Source: Desulfurivibrionaceae bacterium
GTDB lineage: Bacteria; Desulfobacterota; Desulfobulbia; Desulfobulbales; UBA5123
Assembly: GCA_030145325.1 (NCBI GenBank)
Contig: JAQYVW010000024.1
Coordinates: forward strand, 1 to 40,384
Direction: 5' to 3'
Length of the DNA stretch: 40,384 nt
Under the pieces are notes generated by a model that ran no database searches, was not told the DNA's origin, and saw nothing but the letters and a program-made list of their open reading frames with translations. This document shows, piece by piece, positions 1 through 7,313 of the stretch; the first letter of the stretch is position 1; each line of letters begins with the position of its first letter. The position numbers and the translations under genes were made by a program.

Positions 1-591
1 TACGAAAAAAGACCACCATTTAAACTGACATATAACTTTTACTGCCAACACCGACTCATTAAAGAATTGGAACAACGTCTTTTCATATCTAAGGCAACAG
101 CAAACACGAAAGAAATCACCGCTTACTACCAAAAACATCTTGAGAAATTCAAGCTGCCGGAAACAGTGACCATCGCCTCAGTCAGCGGTAACAAAGCCAC
201 AGCTAAGAAGATGTGGACAGGTATCATCATGGGAGAAGATTTCTTTACGCTGGCAGACAAATACTATAAGCAAGAACCAAAACCCCAGGAAATGCCCAGC
301 AATCATCTCGGCTCGGAGATGGCCCAAGCCCTGCAGCCCCTCACCCCAGGTGAAGTTTCGCCGCCATTTCAACAAAAGAACAACACAGTGATGGTCAAAC
401 TCATCAAGCGAAAAAAGGCTAGCCACCGGCCCTTGTCGGAAGTTGCCGATAAAATAACGAAAGATCTTCGCAACAAAACGATATCCCGTTTACGCGATGA
501 ATACCTCGACAAGATTAAAGATAGATCATTGATTTCAGTGGATAACAAAGCATGGCAAGCATTAAAAAAGAACTTGGCGGAAACAAAATGA
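1..591 (+). CDS. PpiC-type peptidyl-prolyl isomerase, 3' end only
   Basis: The reading frame is open from base 1, so the start lies upstream of the window; about 196 residues are visible. The visible part resembles the C-terminal half of SurA/PpiC-like periplasmic foldases: a parvulin-like stretch (LGSEMAQALQPLTPGEVSPP, then VMVKLIKRKKA) followed by a charged helical tail. Such enzymes isomerise proline peptide bonds in exported proteins. The stop overlaps the start of the next gene (ATGA), so it is translationally coupled to the 26-haem cytochrome. That suggests a dedicated folding helper for exported cytochromes (inference). Family assignment rests on a partial and fairly divergent sequence. 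It could also be a peptidase-less SurA-like chaperone. Confidence 0.7.
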   Translation, partial: YEKRPPFKLTYNFYCQHRLIKELEQRLFISKATANTKEITAYYQKHLEKFKLPETVTIASVSGNKATAKKMWTGIIMGEDFFTLADKYYKQEPKPQEMPSNHLGSEMAQALQPLTPGEVSPPFQQKNNTVMVKLIKRKKASHRPLSEVADKITKDLRNKTISRLRDEYLDKIKDRSLISVDNKAWQALKKNLAETK

Positions 592-2537
592 AAAAGATTA
601 CTTTTTACAGCTTACAAGTCTTGGTGTGCTTGACCTTGGCTTTTCTGGTGGTTACATGTGTGCCAACCGGTAAGCAGCCCAAAAAGGCCGTCCGAAATAC
701 CTGCGTTGACTGTCACCAAAAGATGGCAGACAAATACCTCCAAGGGAATGTACACGCACCGGTACTTAACAAGAACTGCGAAGCTTGCCATCAGCCCCAT
801 GGTCTCATCGGCGGACTCTATTTACGCCAAAAGCAACCGAATCTCTGTCTTAGATGTCACCGCGAACTGGGATCACTCTCCGGTAAAAAATCAATTCATA
901 AGCCAATGGCGAAAGGTAAATGTTCGACCTGTCACAATCCCCACAACAGTAAGTTCGCCAACCTTCTCAATGCTGAGGCCAACGAATCATGTTTTGCCTG
1001 CCATGATCGGGCCCCATTTTCCAAAACTAACATCCATGCGCCGCTGCAAAATGGTGGCTGCAAGACTTGCCATGACCCACACATGGCCGATCAACCATAC
1101 CTGCTGATTAAAGATACAAACAACCTCTGCTCCTCATGTCATCAAACAGAAACACCATCTTTCAAAAAGAGTCATTCTGGTTATCCCGTCAAAAGCGGTT
1201 GCGTTCTCTGTCATTCCCCTCATAGTTCAAACCGCCAAGCACTGCTAAAAGACGTTCTCCATCAACCGGTACAAAAAGGAAACTGCAACAGTTGTCACCA
1301 GATTGCAGCCAACGGAACGATCAACCTTGCAGCGTTACCCAACAAACTCTGCCGCAACTGCCATGCCGACCAGTATCAAGGATCGCCTCAACTGCATCAG
1401 CCGGTAAAAGAAGGCCAATGTTTAGATTGCCACGCCGTCCATGCCAGTAATTACGGCACCATGCTTATCAAGCCCCAGAAACAACTCTGCCTTGACTGCC
1501 ACCAGCAAGGTCAGAATCCCAAGATGAGAAGCAAGCACACTCCCGCCCAGGAAGGGAAATGTCTTGATTGCCACCAAGGCCATGACTCCAAAGATACCCC
1601 CCTCTTACGCTCTTCCAGCCAAACTCTTTGCTTTAAATGTCACGACAGGATGTCCAGCGTCCCTTACCAACATCCCCCGGCGGCAACAGGAGACTGTCTG
1701 GCATGCCATACTCCCCATGAGTCAGAGAACCGCAAACTTCTCGCCAATAACGAAAGTGAGCTCTGCTTCTCCTGCCACACCACCACCGCCAAGGAAATGG
1801 GCCGTTTCAGCCTCCACAACCCCTTTGCCAGAGGCGAGTGTAGCCGTTGTCATCAGGCACACGGAAGTAAACAGAAAAAACTTCTGAAATCTAAAAAAGA
1901 AGGTGGCATTCTCTGTCTTGGCTGTCACCAAGGGCTGACTCACACCACCACAAACGGTAGTGAACATAAACCATTCACTGCCGGGGAATGCTTAACCTGT
2001 CACTCTCCACACGCCAGTGACCAGCCATACACCCTCAGGGAAAGCCCCGGCACACTTTGCCTGAGTTGTCATACCGAAACGAAATTGTTTATCAACCGCC
2101 AAGAGGTTGCGCACGCTCCTGTGGCCAAGCTCAATTGCGCCGCTTGCCATTCCGCCCATGGCTCACCGTACCCCAATCTCCACACCAAAAGAGAACCAAC
2201 CCTCTGCCTTTCTTGTCACATTGAAGTGGGACGCTACTGGCAAAAAGGTGTCGGTCATTCCCCAGCCATGAAAGACTGCACCATCTGCCACCAACCCCAT
2301 GGATCAAACCAAGCCGGAATGCTCAATTCACCAATTGGACAGCTCTGCGCAAAATGCCATCAAGAAGAGACCACAATCTTTATCAATGCCCATCAGAAGA
2401 TAATGCCTCGACCCGATTCTTGTGTGACCTGCCACGACCCACATGGAGGACTGGAAAAAAATCTTCTTTATCCAGTAAGTCACAATCCTTTTGCCAACGG
2501 CACCTGTAACCCTTGCCACCAGGGGAGGAAAAACTAA
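588..2537 (+). CDS. 26-haem c-type cytochrome, doubled CXXCH family
   Basis: The 649-residue protein holds 26 CXXCH motifs (my count), one per 25 residues, many as CxxCHxPH or CxxCHxxH with an extra His for bis-His ligation. Pairs of motifs recur every 40-50 residues with phrases such as LCxxCH and GxCxxCHxPHxS, the doubled-CXXCH repeat architecture. The N-terminus is a hydrophobic export segment (residues about 8-26) ending at LVVTC, a weak lipobox, so it may be an outer-membrane lipoprotein. ATG 588 overlaps the upstream stop and is preferred over the ATG at 552, which would sit deep in the preceding gene and spoil the signal peptide. The likely role is long-range electron transfer in the periplasm or at the cell surface. 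It is the first of two large cytochromes in the cluster. The partner and redox direction cannot be read from sequence. Confidence 0.93.
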   Translation: MKKITFYSLQVLVCLTLAFLVVTCVPTGKQPKKAVRNTCVDCHQKMADKYLQGNVHAPVLNKNCEACHQPHGLIGGLYLRQKQPNLCLRCHRELGSLSGKKSIHKPMAKGKCSTCHNPHNSKFANLLNAEANESCFACHDRAPFSKTNIHAPLQNGGCKTCHDPHMADQPYLLIKDTNNLCSSCHQTETPSFKKSHSGYPVKSGCVLCHSPHSSNRQALLKDVLHQPVQKGNCNSCHQIAANGTINLAALPNKLCRNCHADQYQGSPQLHQPVKEGQCLDCHAVHASNYGTMLIKPQKQLCLDCHQQGQNPKMRSKHTPAQEGKCLDCHQGHDSKDTPLLRSSSQTLCFKCHDRMSSVPYQHPPAATGDCLACHTPHESENRKLLANNESELCFSCHTTTAKEMGRFSLHNPFARGECSRCHQAHGSKQKKLLKSKKEGGILCLGCHQGLTHTTTNGSEHKPFTAGECLTCHSPHASDQPYTLRESPGTLCLSCHTETKLFINRQEVAHAPVAKLNCAACHSAHGSPYPNLHTKREPTLCLSCHIEVGRYWQKGVGHSPAMKDCTICHQPHGSNQAGMLNSPIGQLCAKCHQEETTIFINAHQKIMPRPDSCVTCHDPHGGLEKNLLYPVSHNPFANGTCNPCHQGRKN

Positions 2538-3715
2538 TGCGGAACCAAATGCGCTTATCGCCTCTTTTGCTAATCCTTCTCTTTGCTCTGGTTCTGCCTG
2601 CAATCGGACAGGCAAGTAATCCCTGCTTCAAATGCCACAAGAAACAACTTTTCAAAAAAAGATTCACCCACCAGCCGGTGGCCGACAACAAGTGCGGGGC
2701 TTGTCATAATCCCCACGTTGCCCGTTACAAAAACCTCCTACAGCATAAGATTGCCACCCTCTGCTTCTCCTGCCACGAAAAATCAGCTCGGGAATTCAGT
2801 AAGGGAATCGTCCACGCCCCTGTCAGGAAGGGTAATTGCACCGCCTGCCACGACGCTCACGCCTCCAATGTCAGCAGCCTTCTCAACAAGCGACTGGCAG
2901 ACAGTTGTTTCAGTTGTCACAAGACAACTCCACAGAAATTCAAGCACCCCCATGCCCCGTTTGCAAAAGGGGACTGTACTGCTTGTCATCAGCCCCACCA
3001 AGCCGATAACGGCTACCTCCTCAAAGAGGATTCAGACAAACTCTGCTTCTCATGTCACCAGAAAGCAACTCTACAACAGAAACACCCCAACTTCCCCAAG
3101 CAACCAGCACGCTGCCTTTCCTGCCATAATCCTCACGGCAGCAAGCAGAAAGCATTGATGCGCAATGAAATGCACCAACCATTCAAACAAGGCTGCAAGA
3201 GTTGTCATGATAAAAAACAGGGAACCTCGGCTGCAGGCTGTCTGAAATGCCATCCGACCATCAAACAAAAGATGTACGCAACCCATAGCCACCTTACCTC
3301 TCCGGGTGATGGCAACAGTTGCCTAGAATGCCATTCCCCCCATGCCGGCGACAAAAAGAACCTGCTCAAGAGTAGCCAACAAGTACTCTGCCGGAAGTGC
3401 CACGAAGAAACATACCGCCGTAAAGATGCCAGCCCATATCCGCACCCGGACGCAGCGACGTGCAGTAATTGTCACGATGTCCACGGTTCCAGCAATGCGG
3501 CCATGCTCAAAGGCGACGGCAACAATGTCTGTGAGCAATGCCACAAAGCGCAGGGGCAGTTCACTCACCCGGTGGGAGCAAAAATCCGTGATCCTCGCAC
3601 TGGTCTAGCGGTGACCTGCGTCAGTTGTCATTATCCAATGGGTACCGAGTATAAATATCAGCTAAAACGAAACGGTCAAAAAGAGCTTTGTATGCTCTGC
3701 CACAAAGCGTACTGA
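2537..3715 (+). CDS. 16-haem c-type cytochrome, doubled CXXCH family
   Basis: This is a 392-residue exported protein with 16 CXXCH motifs. The signal peptide (MRNQMRLSPLLLILLFALVL, cleavage near IGQA-SN) begins at ATG 2537, which shares its A with the TAA stop of the previous gene. A strong AGGGGAGG lies about 9 bases upstream, which rules out the TTG at 2513. Repeats such as LCFSCH and GxCTACHxPH are very like those in the 26-haem protein, so the two look like products of the same repeat expansion. The mature protein has no anchor and is probably periplasmic or secreted. It is expected to relay electrons with the neighbouring 26-haem protein; whether they form a complex is inference. Confidence 0.93.
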   Translation: MRNQMRLSPLLLILLFALVLPAIGQASNPCFKCHKKQLFKKRFTHQPVADNKCGACHNPHVARYKNLLQHKIATLCFSCHEKSAREFSKGIVHAPVRKGNCTACHDAHASNVSSLLNKRLADSCFSCHKTTPQKFKHPHAPFAKGDCTACHQPHQADNGYLLKEDSDKLCFSCHQKATLQQKHPNFPKQPARCLSCHNPHGSKQKALMRNEMHQPFKQGCKSCHDKKQGTSAAGCLKCHPTIKQKMYATHSHLTSPGDGNSCLECHSPHAGDKKNLLKSSQQVLCRKCHEETYRRKDASPYPHPDAATCSNCHDVHGSSNAAMLKGDGNNVCEQCHKAQGQFTHPVGAKIRDPRTGLAVTCVSCHYPMGTEYKYQLKRNGQKELCMLCHKAY

Positions 3716-3789
3716 TGCTTACGGCAGAAGGCATTGCCCTTAGTCGTTTCTCAACAAAGATTTCAAAAAATGCACCTGGTAAATTTGCC

Positions 3790-4683
3790 ATGAAAAAAAA
3801 TGTTGTGCTTTCTTCCAGCCTGTTATTCCTAATTCTGCTTCTTTTCCTGCTCGGCGGGAAAGCCGAAGCCAAAACGCCTTGGCACTGGCAGATGAGCCTT
3901 CGAACCGATGCCGTGGTCGGGGCCATGAACATGCCGTCAGCACTGTTTGTGGATGCGAACAAAGACCGCTACTATATCGCCGACTGTGGCAACAACCGCC
4001 TTCTTTCCTTTGATCGCGAAGGTAAACTGCTGCACAGTTTCACCGCCAACGATGAACTCAAGACTCCATATGACATGATTCGTACCGAGACAAACGAATT
4101 ATGGGTGGTTGAAAAAGGGCTTAACAGCCTTACCCAAATTGACAGTCAAGCCAAAAAAACCATTCCCCACACCCTCCAGTACAAAGAGCGGACCGTCTTC
4201 CCTGACCGGGTCGAATATAAAAACAACCATTTCTACCTTCTAGACAAAGCCAGCGGCGATATTCTGGTTCTTGATAAAGATTTGACCATCAAACAGAGTT
4301 TCACATGCCCAACAGAAAAAGGTGCTGGTGGTTTTGTGGATTTCAAACTTGTCGGCAAGGATATCTGGTCCTTGGATCAACGCAGCAAAACTATTTATCA
4401 TTTTCGCCCCGACGGAGGAATTGCCGACAGAATCCGTTTAGGTAAAGATGTCCACTCCCCAGTCTCCCTTGCCATTAGCCAAATCGGAATCATCTATATC
4501 TTGGATCGTCTAGACAACAAAGTCAGTTCCTTTGACCGTTCAGGACGCTTCAAATACAGTTTTCTCACTGCCGGGCAGTCACAAGGACAGCTTTACTTCC
4601 CAAGAGAAATACTTTTTGACCCTTGGGGACAACTTTGTATTGTTGATGAAGGGAACGGCCGCGTAGAGATTTTTCGCCGTTAA
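3790..4683 (+). CDS. exported NHL-repeat beta-propeller protein
   Basis: A 297-residue protein begins MKKN with a hydrophobic core (VVLSSSLLFLILLLFLLGG) and a likely cleavage after AEA. The rest is beta-propeller repeats of NHL type, seen as YYIADCGNNRLLSFDREG, IIYILDRLDNKVSSFDRSGR and a closing LCIVDEGNGRVEIF. No CXXCH is present, so it is not itself a cytochrome. ATG 3790 is chosen because it gives a standard signal peptide. An ATG at 3715 overlapping the previous stop would add 25 unneeded residues, although coupling could begin there. NHL proteins are recurrent neighbours of extracellular cytochromes in metal-reducing bacteria (from memory), where they may act as assembly or scaffold factors. 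The exact job is unknown. Confidence 0.85.
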   Translation: MKKNVVLSSSLLFLILLLFLLGGKAEAKTPWHWQMSLRTDAVVGAMNMPSALFVDANKDRYYIADCGNNRLLSFDREGKLLHSFTANDELKTPYDMIRTETNELWVVEKGLNSLTQIDSQAKKTIPHTLQYKERTVFPDRVEYKNNHFYLLDKASGDILVLDKDLTIKQSFTCPTEKGAGGFVDFKLVGKDIWSLDQRSKTIYHFRPDGGIADRIRLGKDVHSPVSLAISQIGIIYILDRLDNKVSSFDRSGRFKYSFLTAGQSQGQLYFPREILFDPWGQLCIVDEGNGRVEIFRR

Positions 4684-4701
4684 TATTGGGAGGAATAAGC
4701 C

Positions 4702-5793
4702 TTGAAGTCCGTCAGAACAATACTTGTACTTGTTGGCGGGATTCTTCTTTTGCCAACACTCTGCCAAGGAAAGATTCCAGACGGACTTCTATGTGATGAA
4801 TGCCATACCATGCACAATTCCCAAGGCGGGCAGGCGATGTCATGGAACACGGTGCGAAACCCCATGCTCCTGAGAAACACCTGCCTTGGTTGCCATACAG
4901 GAACCAATGAAGCCGGTGGCTATATACCATATGTCCTTGCTACAACCCCACCAACATATGGCGTCAACACTCTCGCTGGCGGTAATTTCTATTGGGTTGC
5001 AGAGGGCGACAATCGCCTCGGCCATAATGTCATTTACCTGAACGTAGATAACAACTATGCAGACAGTGAACTACCTTCCCCACCAGGCTATGCAAGCACG
5101 GCCCCGGCCTGGACTGACAGCACCCTAACCTGTGCCGGCCCGCAGGGTTGTCATGGCAAACGGGAAGTAGCCGATGAAGGTTCCGACCTCCGCGACCCTC
5201 TTACACACTTGGGCGCGCATCACACGGATGACTCCCAACCTCTCGACGGCTCAACCGTTGGCAAAAGCTATCGCTTTCTTGACGGTGTCATCGGCCTTGA
5301 AGACACCAATTGGGAACGCACCAAAAGCGCTTCGAAACACAACCAGTACATGGGTAAGGCTCGGTCCTCTGATACCGATGACGCCACGAGCTATCTTACT
5401 TCCACCGATGGCTCAATCAGTTCTCTTTGCGCCAAATGTCATGGGGACTTCCACAACGGAACCGTGCAAGGAAACGTCGACGGCGGCACCTGGGGAAGCC
5501 CCTGGGTACGGCATCCCACCGACTTCGACATGAATGACGCAACCGGCACCGAATATGGTAGTTACGGCGGTGTCAGCCATGATTACAACCCTGATGTGCC
5601 ACTAGGCAGTAACGATGTAAGTTTAATAAAATCAGAGGTGCTGCAGGGATCAGGCGATGCCATCGTCATGTGCCTATCCTGCCACCGAGCCCACGGTTCT
5701 CCAAATGAGGCCATCCTCCGCTGGGACTTCCGAGGATGGCCTGGCTCCGGCGAATCCTATGGATGTTTCACCTGCCATACCACCAAGGACTAA
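4702..5793 (+). CDS. OmcS/OmcE-like multihaem cytochrome, candidate filament subunit
   Basis: A 363-residue exported cytochrome starts at TTG 4702, nine bases after a GGGAGG ribosome site. The signal peptide is about residues 1-23. Five canonical CXXCH sites are seen (C31, C61, C243, C324, C355). The stretch at residues 144-151 (CAGPQGCH) forms a CX5CH in the place where a third haem would be expected. Landmarks resemble what I recall of Geobacter OmcS/OmcE filament cytochromes: CxxCHTMHNSxGG near the mature N-terminus, a GGxFxWV then GHN stretch, YRFLDG, CAKCHxDFHN, RHP, CLSCHRAHGS and a last CXXCH close to the C-terminus. Haem density is low compared with its neighbours, as in filament subunits. 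Polymerisation is inference; it could also be a monomeric outer-surface cytochrome. Confidence 0.85.
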   Translation: MKSVRTILVLVGGILLLPTLCQGKIPDGLLCDECHTMHNSQGGQAMSWNTVRNPMLLRNTCLGCHTGTNEAGGYIPYVLATTPPTYGVNTLAGGNFYWVAEGDNRLGHNVIYLNVDNNYADSELPSPPGYASTAPAWTDSTLTCAGPQGCHGKREVADEGSDLRDPLTHLGAHHTDDSQPLDGSTVGKSYRFLDGVIGLEDTNWERTKSASKHNQYMGKARSSDTDDATSYLTSTDGSISSLCAKCHGDFHNGTVQGNVDGGTWGSPWVRHPTDFDMNDATGTEYGSYGGVSHDYNPDVPLGSNDVSLIKSEVLQGSGDAIVMCLSCHRAHGSPNEAILRWDFRGWPGSGESYGCFTCHTTKD

Positions 5794-7313
5794 TGAAAAA
5801 GATAACCTCGACATCCCTCCCCCAACAAGAGCGCTCAATTGCTTGTATTCTTACAGCCATTAATAGGGAGCGGCTAATTAAGGTCGCCACCGTCCTGACC
5901 CTTCTCCTGCAACTGATTATCACCGGTTGCAAGACCACTGGCACCAGCTCCTCCCATCATCTTCAGCAAAAGATGGAAGTCAATAACACTGCGGTGGCCA
6001 ACAGCGGCGGCAGAATCTCTCTATTCCTGAGCCTCAAAACTCCTGATAACCAGGGCGTTCGCCTGGATGTCAGCCAAATCGACATTTTGCACGATGACAT
6101 CTGGCTACCCCTTACATCTTCCCCCCTGACAATTAATGCTGCGGAAATCGGTTCACAGCAACTCTTTCTCGGACGTTGCCTATTGCCTCCCGGACAATGT
6201 CGTCGTCTTCGTTTTACCCTTCAGCAAGCATCAATCCTTAAAAACGACGGCAGCCAAATCTTCCTCGGCTTAGATAGCACCATGGTGGAACTAGATCTGC
6301 CGACAGCACTTGATCTAAGACGAGGTGATAGCCAATCGCTATTTATCACCTGGGATGAGGAAACCTCGTTACGCACCTCACCTATTCTCAAACCAACCTT
6401 AAGCATAACTCCCAATCTCAAACAAATAACCACGGATCTTGCTTACGCCGCCTGCCCTGAGATCAACACAATTTATGTTCTCCGCACCGATAAGAACTGG
6501 GTCTGCGACTCTTTTGGCATCAGCGGTCACCCCACCTGTCTAACGGCAATCAGACGACAATCCAGCGACCGACTCTATATCCTTTCTCCACAGGATGCAG
6601 TTATTAATGTTGTTGCGATACCCGAGAACAATATCATCAATTCCTTCCGCATCCCCATGACCACCAAGCCTACCTTTATGACCTTAAGTTCCGACGGGAG
6701 CTGGGCATACATCCTCGATACGCAAAACGACTATCTCCTCCGCATGGATATGGACTCCGGCAATCTGGATAAACGAGTTCGGTTAGGTTACCAACCAGAA
6801 TACGCCACCTATATCAACGCCCACAACCTCTTGGCGGTGGGCTCAACAATCTCCCAAACCATCTCGTTGCTGGATGCAAACACCTTCGCAAAAGTAGGAG
6901 AAATTCCGACGACAGGCACCCCCGAAGGACTTTTGGCTTGGGATAATTTACTATATATTTGCGAAGGTAGTGCAAACTCGGTCACGGTTTATGATCTGAA
7001 TCGACGGACCATACTCTCCCGCCAAAATGTCGGCTTTTTTCCGCACCGACTTCTCCAAAGCGACAATCAGATCTATGTAAGCAACCGGGACAGCAATTCA
7101 ATCTCCATCATCCACCCAAGACAGTTGGGCATTGCCCGTGAAATAAACCTTGATGGCACCCCCATAGAAATGGCGGTGGAGGAAAACAGTAGGTGGATTT
7201 ATGTCGGCAACAAAACTATCGGTGGCCTTTCCGTAATCGATGCAACCATCAACCGGATCAGCAGCCAGATTCTTTTCGGGGCCGTTCCCATGTCGTTGGC
7301 TGTTATCCAATAA
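5793..7313 (+). CDS. lipoprotein with C-terminal YVTN-type beta-propeller
   Basis: A 506-residue protein starts at ATG 5793, sharing its A with the previous TAA. After a polar stretch of about 30 residues comes a hydrophobic segment ending LLQLIITGC, a good lipobox, so it is probably lipidated at Cys46. Residues about 70-210 form a beta-rich domain with no motif I can name with certainty (loosely like DUF4382). From about residue 220 there are propeller repeats of YVTN/cytochrome-D1 type (WAYILDTQNDYLLRMDMDSG, LYICEGSANSVTVYDLNRRT, YVSNRDSNSISIIHPRQLG, IYVGNKTIGGLSVID). It lacks CXXCH and closes the coupled cytochrome cluster, so it is likely a surface or periplasmic scaffold for the cytochromes (inference). 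Confidence 0.82.
   Translation: MKKITSTSLPQQERSIACILTAINRERLIKVATVLTLLLQLIITGCKTTGTSSSHHLQQKMEVNNTAVANSGGRISLFLSLKTPDNQGVRLDVSQIDILHDDIWLPLTSSPLTINAAEIGSQQLFLGRCLLPPGQCRRLRFTLQQASILKNDGSQIFLGLDSTMVELDLPTALDLRRGDSQSLFITWDEETSLRTSPILKPTLSITPNLKQITTDLAYAACPEINTIYVLRTDKNWVCDSFGISGHPTCLTAIRRQSSDRLYILSPQDAVINVVAIPENNIINSFRIPMTTKPTFMTLSSDGSWAYILDTQNDYLLRMDMDSGNLDKRVRLGYQPEYATYINAHNLLAVGSTISQTISLLDANTFAKVGEIPTTGTPEGLLAWDNLLYICEGSANSVTVYDLNRRTILSRQNVGFFPHRLLQSDNQIYVSNRDSNSISIIHPRQLGIAREINLDGTPIEMAVEENSRWIYVGNKTIGGLSVIDATINRISSQILFGAVPMSLAVIQ

Follow-up and report, generated by a model that had tools for sequence, protein, structure and literature searches.

The cytochrome gene at positions 4702..5793 (+) of a 40,384-nucleotide stretch of DNA from a Desulfurivibrionaceae bacterium (the window, i.e., the whole stretch that was analyzed) raises the question whether its third haem site, in which five residues instead of two separate the cysteines, still holds a haem, or whether the chain of haems is interrupted at this place. 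The usual starting point for counting haems, modelling structures, and calculating electron transfer in OmcS-like nanowires is CXXCH, and under a CXXCH-only reading most OmcS-like proteins of the sampled genomes would be one haem short, in the middle of the chain.

Sequence features and relation to OmcS

The gene is an intact ORF of 363 aa with a TTG start and a likely ribosome-binding site (GGGAGG, 4688..4693, +) 8 nt 5' of it. The product was annotated as a six-haem OmcS-like c-type cytochrome, and a by-eye reading recognized a Sec-type signal peptide and no obvious lipobox. The five CXXCH sites and the CAGPQGCH (C144, C150, H151) reported in the preliminary description were confirmed in the intact frame. 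On the forward strand these are site 1 (C31-DE-C34-H35, 4792..4806), site 2 (C61-LG-C64-H65, 4882..4896), the expanded site 3 (C144-AGPQG-C150-H151, CX5CH, 5131..5154), site 4 (C243-AK-C246-H247, 5428..5442), site 5 (C324-LS-C327-H328, 5671..5685), and site 6 (C355-FT-C358-H359, 5764..5778). C144 is the nearest cysteine upstream of C150-H151, the sixth CH, which gives the CAGPQGCH reading, and every cysteine of the mature protein belongs to a haem-type site.

When the protein was searched with phmmer against all PDB sequences (E up to 10), the sole match was OmcS (E 8.7e-13, residues 31-342), with 27.7% identity over 354 aligned positions by BLAST, while a profile of 20 homologues matched OmcS with an E-value of 8e-28. 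As a control, OmcS was shuffled 200 times with the CXXCH sites and all histidines fixed in place, and the 177 scored shuffles reached a maximum of 41.3 and a median of 11.5 bits vs. 99.6 bits for OmcS itself. Masking every C and H of OmcS reduced the profile match to 6.6 bits, and the argument for homology therefore relies on the motif-preserving shuffles. The same profile matched OmcE with an E-value of 0.03 and over part of the length only, and the window protein has six sites, not the four-haem layout of OmcE. Since the OmcS score far exceeds those of the motif-preserving shuffles and the OmcE match is only partial, the protein is, on these alignments, OmcS-like and not demonstrably OmcE-like. 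Of the earlier "OmcS/OmcE-like" label the first half thus stands and the second does not: the alignment with OmcS covers most of the protein, well beyond the CXXCH spacing, and places CAGPQGCH at the third-haem position, as had been proposed. An AlphaFold2 model of the window protein and four homologues had a pLDDT of 29.7 and was discarded.

OmcS-type members of the family (41-59% identical to OmcS) carry CXXCH at site 3 and form a separate outgroup to the clade of the window protein in the tree. Because of its five CXXCH plus one CX5CH site instead of six CXXCH, together with this tree placement, the window protein is assigned by sequence to a sister clade of OmcS and is not regarded as an OmcS orthologue. 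The split agrees with PMC12545173, the text of which places the OmcS-like proteins of Desulfurivibrio alkaliphilus as sister to OmcS and counts haem motifs as CXnCH with n = 2 to 5.

Cysteine spacing at the third site among homologues

Homologues were found in 38 of 58 related genomes, the first set of which yielded 90-odd sequences, and in 39 of 247 genomes of a phylum set. In total, 189 homologous ORFs were retrieved, and the 181 of them that contain between six and eight CH sites were counted; the HMM was built from CX5CH-rich sequences, by which other spacings may be undersampled, and the counts describe this sample and not the whole family. At site 3, the cysteines are separated by five residues in 105 of these homologues, by two in 46, three in 16, four in 11, and by six and eight in one each, with one further CXXXXCCH-like case, so that 135 of 181 have something other than CXXCH. 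Sites 1, 5, and 6 are CXXCH in all 181 (a single seeming exception results from the way a CHACH was counted). Site 2 is CXXCH in 180, the single departure being a CX5CH (CLGVTACH) in L024 (L024:1333+), and site 4 has a single true departure, a contracted CX1CH (ACMCHGDFH) in L095 (L095:1110-), as four further ones proved to be an additional CX3CH site. The spacing is thus labile at one place, where the cysteine pair and the CH are kept. The motif is not a peculiarity of this protein but is what most members of a large clade have.

The expanded site has the consensus L-T-C-A-G-x-x-G-C-H-G, in which the alanine is found in 88 and the three glycines in 99, 102, and 101 of 104 sequences. A back-translated DNA pattern of CAGxxGCHG occurred at 58 places in 27 of 297 genomes of the phylum and the reversed control pattern matched once, which argues that the motif is not due to chance. 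In the 84 six-haem CX5CH homologues all 12 site cysteines and the six proximal histidines are invariant; the conservation in relatives by which C144 and C150 were to be judged is hence complete (84/84), and H151 is identical in all of them too. Loss of the site-3 cysteine pair or of its CH was found in none of the full-length homologues examined, and those ORFs with fewer CH sites that were checked were truncated or distant.

Close relatives differ from each other at this site only within the inter-cysteine loop, as can be seen in the segments of L049 (CTDCHTGGGHH), L050 (CTSCHTGGGHH), L076 (CAGTDGCHGGGGHH), and L074 (CSGSTYAYGCHRAGGHH). In a tree calculated without the site-3 columns, at least seven changes between the canonical and the expanded state and 19 changes of spacing were counted, with both cysteines retained throughout, and a single clade of six-haem CX5CH proteins was weakly rejected (AU test, p 0.041). 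Site 3 therefore consists, as far as the alignments tell, of two conserved cysteines and an adjacent CH, and is exchanged for CXXCH in some relatives.

Apart from the proximal histidines, H38, H108, H173, H174, H251, H271, and H331 are invariant in the 84 six-haem CX5CH members, while other histidines vary. These are seven candidates for the six axial positions that six haems need. H38 of CHTMH (4813..4815, +) is aligned with the OmcS CHTMH histidine and is invariant in all 181 homologues; H108 of GHN (5023..5025, +) is aligned with the GHN of OmcS, and H251 of CHGDFH (5452..5454, +), H271 of RHP (5512..5514, +), and H331 of CHRAH (5692..5694, +) are candidate axial ligands by alignment with OmcS and by conservation. 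The H173-H174 doublet (5218..5223, +) is present in 84 of 84 six-haem CX5CH members, whereas most OmcS-type members have CxxCH-DPH and lack it, so that one of its histidines probably takes the place of the DPH ligand of OmcS.

Additional sites were also observed in the family. A group of paralogues (L020:2681-3901, L064-L071, L073, L078, L093, and L094) has CX5CH at site 3 and an extra site directly before site 4, which ranges from CX4CH to CX7CH (CSATSCH, CADGISCH, CGNPAASCH, CGGGSEVTCH) and is CX3CH in L119 and L137. In the OmcS-type members L156, L160, L163, and L165, one more site, a CX3CH (GCALNCHVSLL), lies between site 4 and site 5 and is similar to the third site (CANSCHTSL) of the seven-haem paralogues. 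One seven-haem homologue (L036) lies on a contig labelled as a Chloroflexi MAG, which would mean either transfer beyond the phylum or mis-binning.

An intact six-haem OmcS-like gene with CAGTYGCHG (L193:3001-4098, +) was also present on the IMG/VR phage contig IMGVR_UViG_3300005099_000065, at about 70,100-71,200 of 79,661 bp; its product shows 45% likeness to the window protein and 59% to L112, the cellular protein closest to it. The gene is flanked on its two sides by HNH endonuclease, endolysin, and RuvC-like genes, and further genes of the contig code for a major head protein (1.8e-60), a holin, a DNA polymerase, a UvsX-like recombinase, and a gp32-like protein. It was the sole example in IMG/VR with the queries used; no CX5CH OmcS-like cytochrome gene was found in the INPHARED phage records and the plasmid collection gave no match. 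The contig may represent a phage-borne nanowire subunit or a chimeric assembly.

Gene neighborhood and probable filament formation

The cytochrome gene adjoins a known electron-transfer island (window 1-4683) that is made up, all on the forward strand, of the C-terminal part of a parvulin-type peptidyl-prolyl isomerase (PPIase) cut by the contig start (1..591, PF13145 4.8e-16), a 26-haem cytochrome (552..2537), a 16-haem cytochrome (2513..3715), and an NHL beta-propeller protein (3688..4683, PF01436 4.4e-8) that is found in the same place in relatives. Downstream, a YncE-like beta-propeller protein is encoded (5736..7313, +, PF21783 1.8e-7), and in some relatives (L039, L041) a non-haem ORF of about 480-526 aa occupies the corresponding place after the cytochrome. 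The island of 16-haem and 26-haem cytochromes, PPIase, and beta-propeller is known from partner bacteria of ANME and from Desulfurivibrio (PMC5539420), and the text of PMC10553843 names it Oet, with OmcS-like, OmcX, and Apc2a cytochromes in omcS/omcT-like positions. In many relatives each end of the island has a cytochrome of the present family, with a distance of 12-14 kb between the two. In the window's genome, contig C34 ends with the N-terminal PPIase part (L056) and the window contig (C39) begins inside the PPIase, with roughly 40 codons missing when the contig ends are compared with an intact relative; C34 moreover encodes a 14-haem cytochrome and the second CX5CH cytochrome, and where relatives have the porin it contains a 720-aa ORF for which no Pfam match was found. 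Given this gene content and the split PPIase, the two contigs are very probably neighbors with a short gap between them.

The genome encodes DsrA and two ResB/CcsA pairs of the cytochrome c maturation machinery (G000:C99, L199, and G000:C85, L201), and nothing resembling a dedicated lyase was seen near 4702..5793. One of these pairs directly adjoins a seven-haem cytochrome, and one of the two might serve expanded motifs.

The genome of D. alkaliphilus (G007) offers a link to expression data. The published DA_402 primers match exactly at a 469-aa ORF with CAGAKGCH, and two further members, nine genes apart at the island, fit DA_756 and DA_765 by position and count; all three carry CX5CH (CAGAKGCH in DA_402, CAGAAGCH and CATATGCH in the island pair). 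According to the text of PMC12545173, DA_756 and DA_765 are OmcS-like members upregulated during iron-oxide respiration; the upregulated proteins are apparent orthologues of the window protein. For DA_402, the study presents a model of a polymer like that of OmcS, in which six of the seven motifs align with OmcS. The text does not name the motif that was left out and lacked a partner histidine, and the model would lend only indirect support to the reading preferred here.

A surface cytochrome of the OmcS fold that stays monomeric or conduit-associated and does not polymerize seems unlikely, even if we know of no solved filament from the OmcS-like sister clade and the several paralogues of the cytochrome per genome possibly have other roles. 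Against it stands H38, which occupies the place of the inter-subunit ligand: its counterpart in the OmcS CHTMH, which we take to be the ligand donated to the neighboring subunit, is aligned with a residue that is invariant in 181 of 181 homologues. OmcS has one such inter-subunit histidine ligand, on haem 5 (PMC6584659). The gene position, moreover, resembles that of omcS/omcT with the same conduit adjoining, following the text of PMC10553843, and for the relative DA_402 a polymer model has been published (PMC12545173). Filament formation is thus the preferred reading, in which the subunits would most likely stack as extracellular filaments that are fed by the adjacently encoded conduit of 26-haem cytochrome, 16-haem cytochrome, and porin and that could exchange electrons with minerals or partner cells.

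Probable haem attachment at the expanded site and comparison with known systems

Taken together, we consider it probable that 4702..5793 encodes an OmcS-type, filament-forming six-haem cytochrome in which haem 3 is bound through the expanded CX5CH and the chain is unbroken. The protein would be secreted and would carry six c-type haems in a linear chain, with C150 and H151 of site 3 in the usual CH role and C144 reaching the second vinyl group over a glycine-bounded loop of five residues (C-A-G-x-x-G-C-H-G), while one histidine of H173/H174 would do the axial-ligand job of the histidine in the OmcS CxxCH-DPH. With haem 3 attached in this way, the chain would not be interrupted. The preliminary description had left the choice between a long loop that binds haem and a gap in the chain, and the comparative evidence favors the former and disfavors the latter: a stretched site that is conserved in over a hundred relatives most likely still holds its haem.

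Attachment of haem 3 by one thioether only (C150), with C144 kept for another function such as packing at the subunit interface, appears improbable. A five-residue loop is unusual, and the long loop of OmcZ is also part of the subunit interface (PMC9473688), but C144 is invariant in 84 of 84 sequences although the length of the loop varies among relatives, and a long loop accommodates both bonds in OmcZ, the haem 1 of which is attached through CX14CH within a filament (PMC9473688). Cytochrome c maturation tolerates longer spacings, and a CX15CH is found in MccA (PMC7096707). Least likely is a haem-free site 3, i.e., a five-haem relative with a structural C144-C150 disulfide, H151 as an ordinary or axial residue, and a gapped chain, for which speak the departure from CXXCH (scans for CXXCH only would give five haems) and an ungapped profile alignment in which H151 is matched with the histidine of the OmcS CHDPH and not with that of the CXXCH, but against which stand nested relatives with a plain CXXCH in place and the same CHx4HH continuation, the presence of the cysteine pair in all full-length homologues examined, the invariance of all candidate axial histidines, and many spacing changes without cysteine loss, which a mere disulfide beside an invariant CH does not require. 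Two thioether bonds at an occupied site 3 thus remain the preferred arrangement.

Extended to the family, it seems fairly likely that a large OmcS-like clade holds a mid-chain haem on an expanded motif, usually CX5CH, in which the Cys-Cys spacing is free (2, 3, 4, 5, 6, or 8 residues) while the neighboring sites stay CXXCH, that some paralogues add a seventh site with three to seven residues between its cysteines, and that this region is a hot spot where haem attachment in nanowires is tuned. If the site is occupied, a natural series from CX2 to CX8 at one fixed position is available, with which one can ask directly how much spacing the maturation of cytochrome c tolerates and how the length of the loop acts on a haem within a nanowire; an empty site would mean that the chain model of OmcS-like filaments has to be revised. 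A literature search for CX5CH or CXXXXXCH returned no relevant paper, and PMC12545173 (Nature 2025) counts CX2-5CH in its text. DA_402, DA_756, and DA_765 of that study belong to the same clade as the window protein, and DA_402 and the island pair have CX5CH too; the motif is used there for counting, and its clade-wide conservation and spacing lability are not discussed in the main text. What the present alignments add is that the expanded haem motif is conserved and defines a clade of OmcS-like cytochromes that probably form filaments, in which it appears as the rule and not the exception.

The oetABI cassette of AOM partner bacteria in the text of PMC10553843 and the operon of PMC5539420 are the same island as here, with the same proposed nanowire role, and in these studies haem motifs were sought as CxxCH. 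OmcS of Geobacter sulfurreducens (PDB 6EF8, 6NEF) agrees with the window protein in the number (six) and order of its haem sites and has axial-histidine groups aligned with H38, H108, H251, H271, and H331, but its site 3 is CSSCH followed by DPH, whereas the window protein has CX5CH followed by the HH doublet. OmcE (PDB 7TFS) is of the same general kind, an extracellular filament cytochrome, with four haems. Haem 1 of OmcZ is an expanded attachment loop in a cytochrome filament, as is proposed for the window protein, although in a different fold, at another haem position, and with 14 instead of 5 residues between the cysteines.
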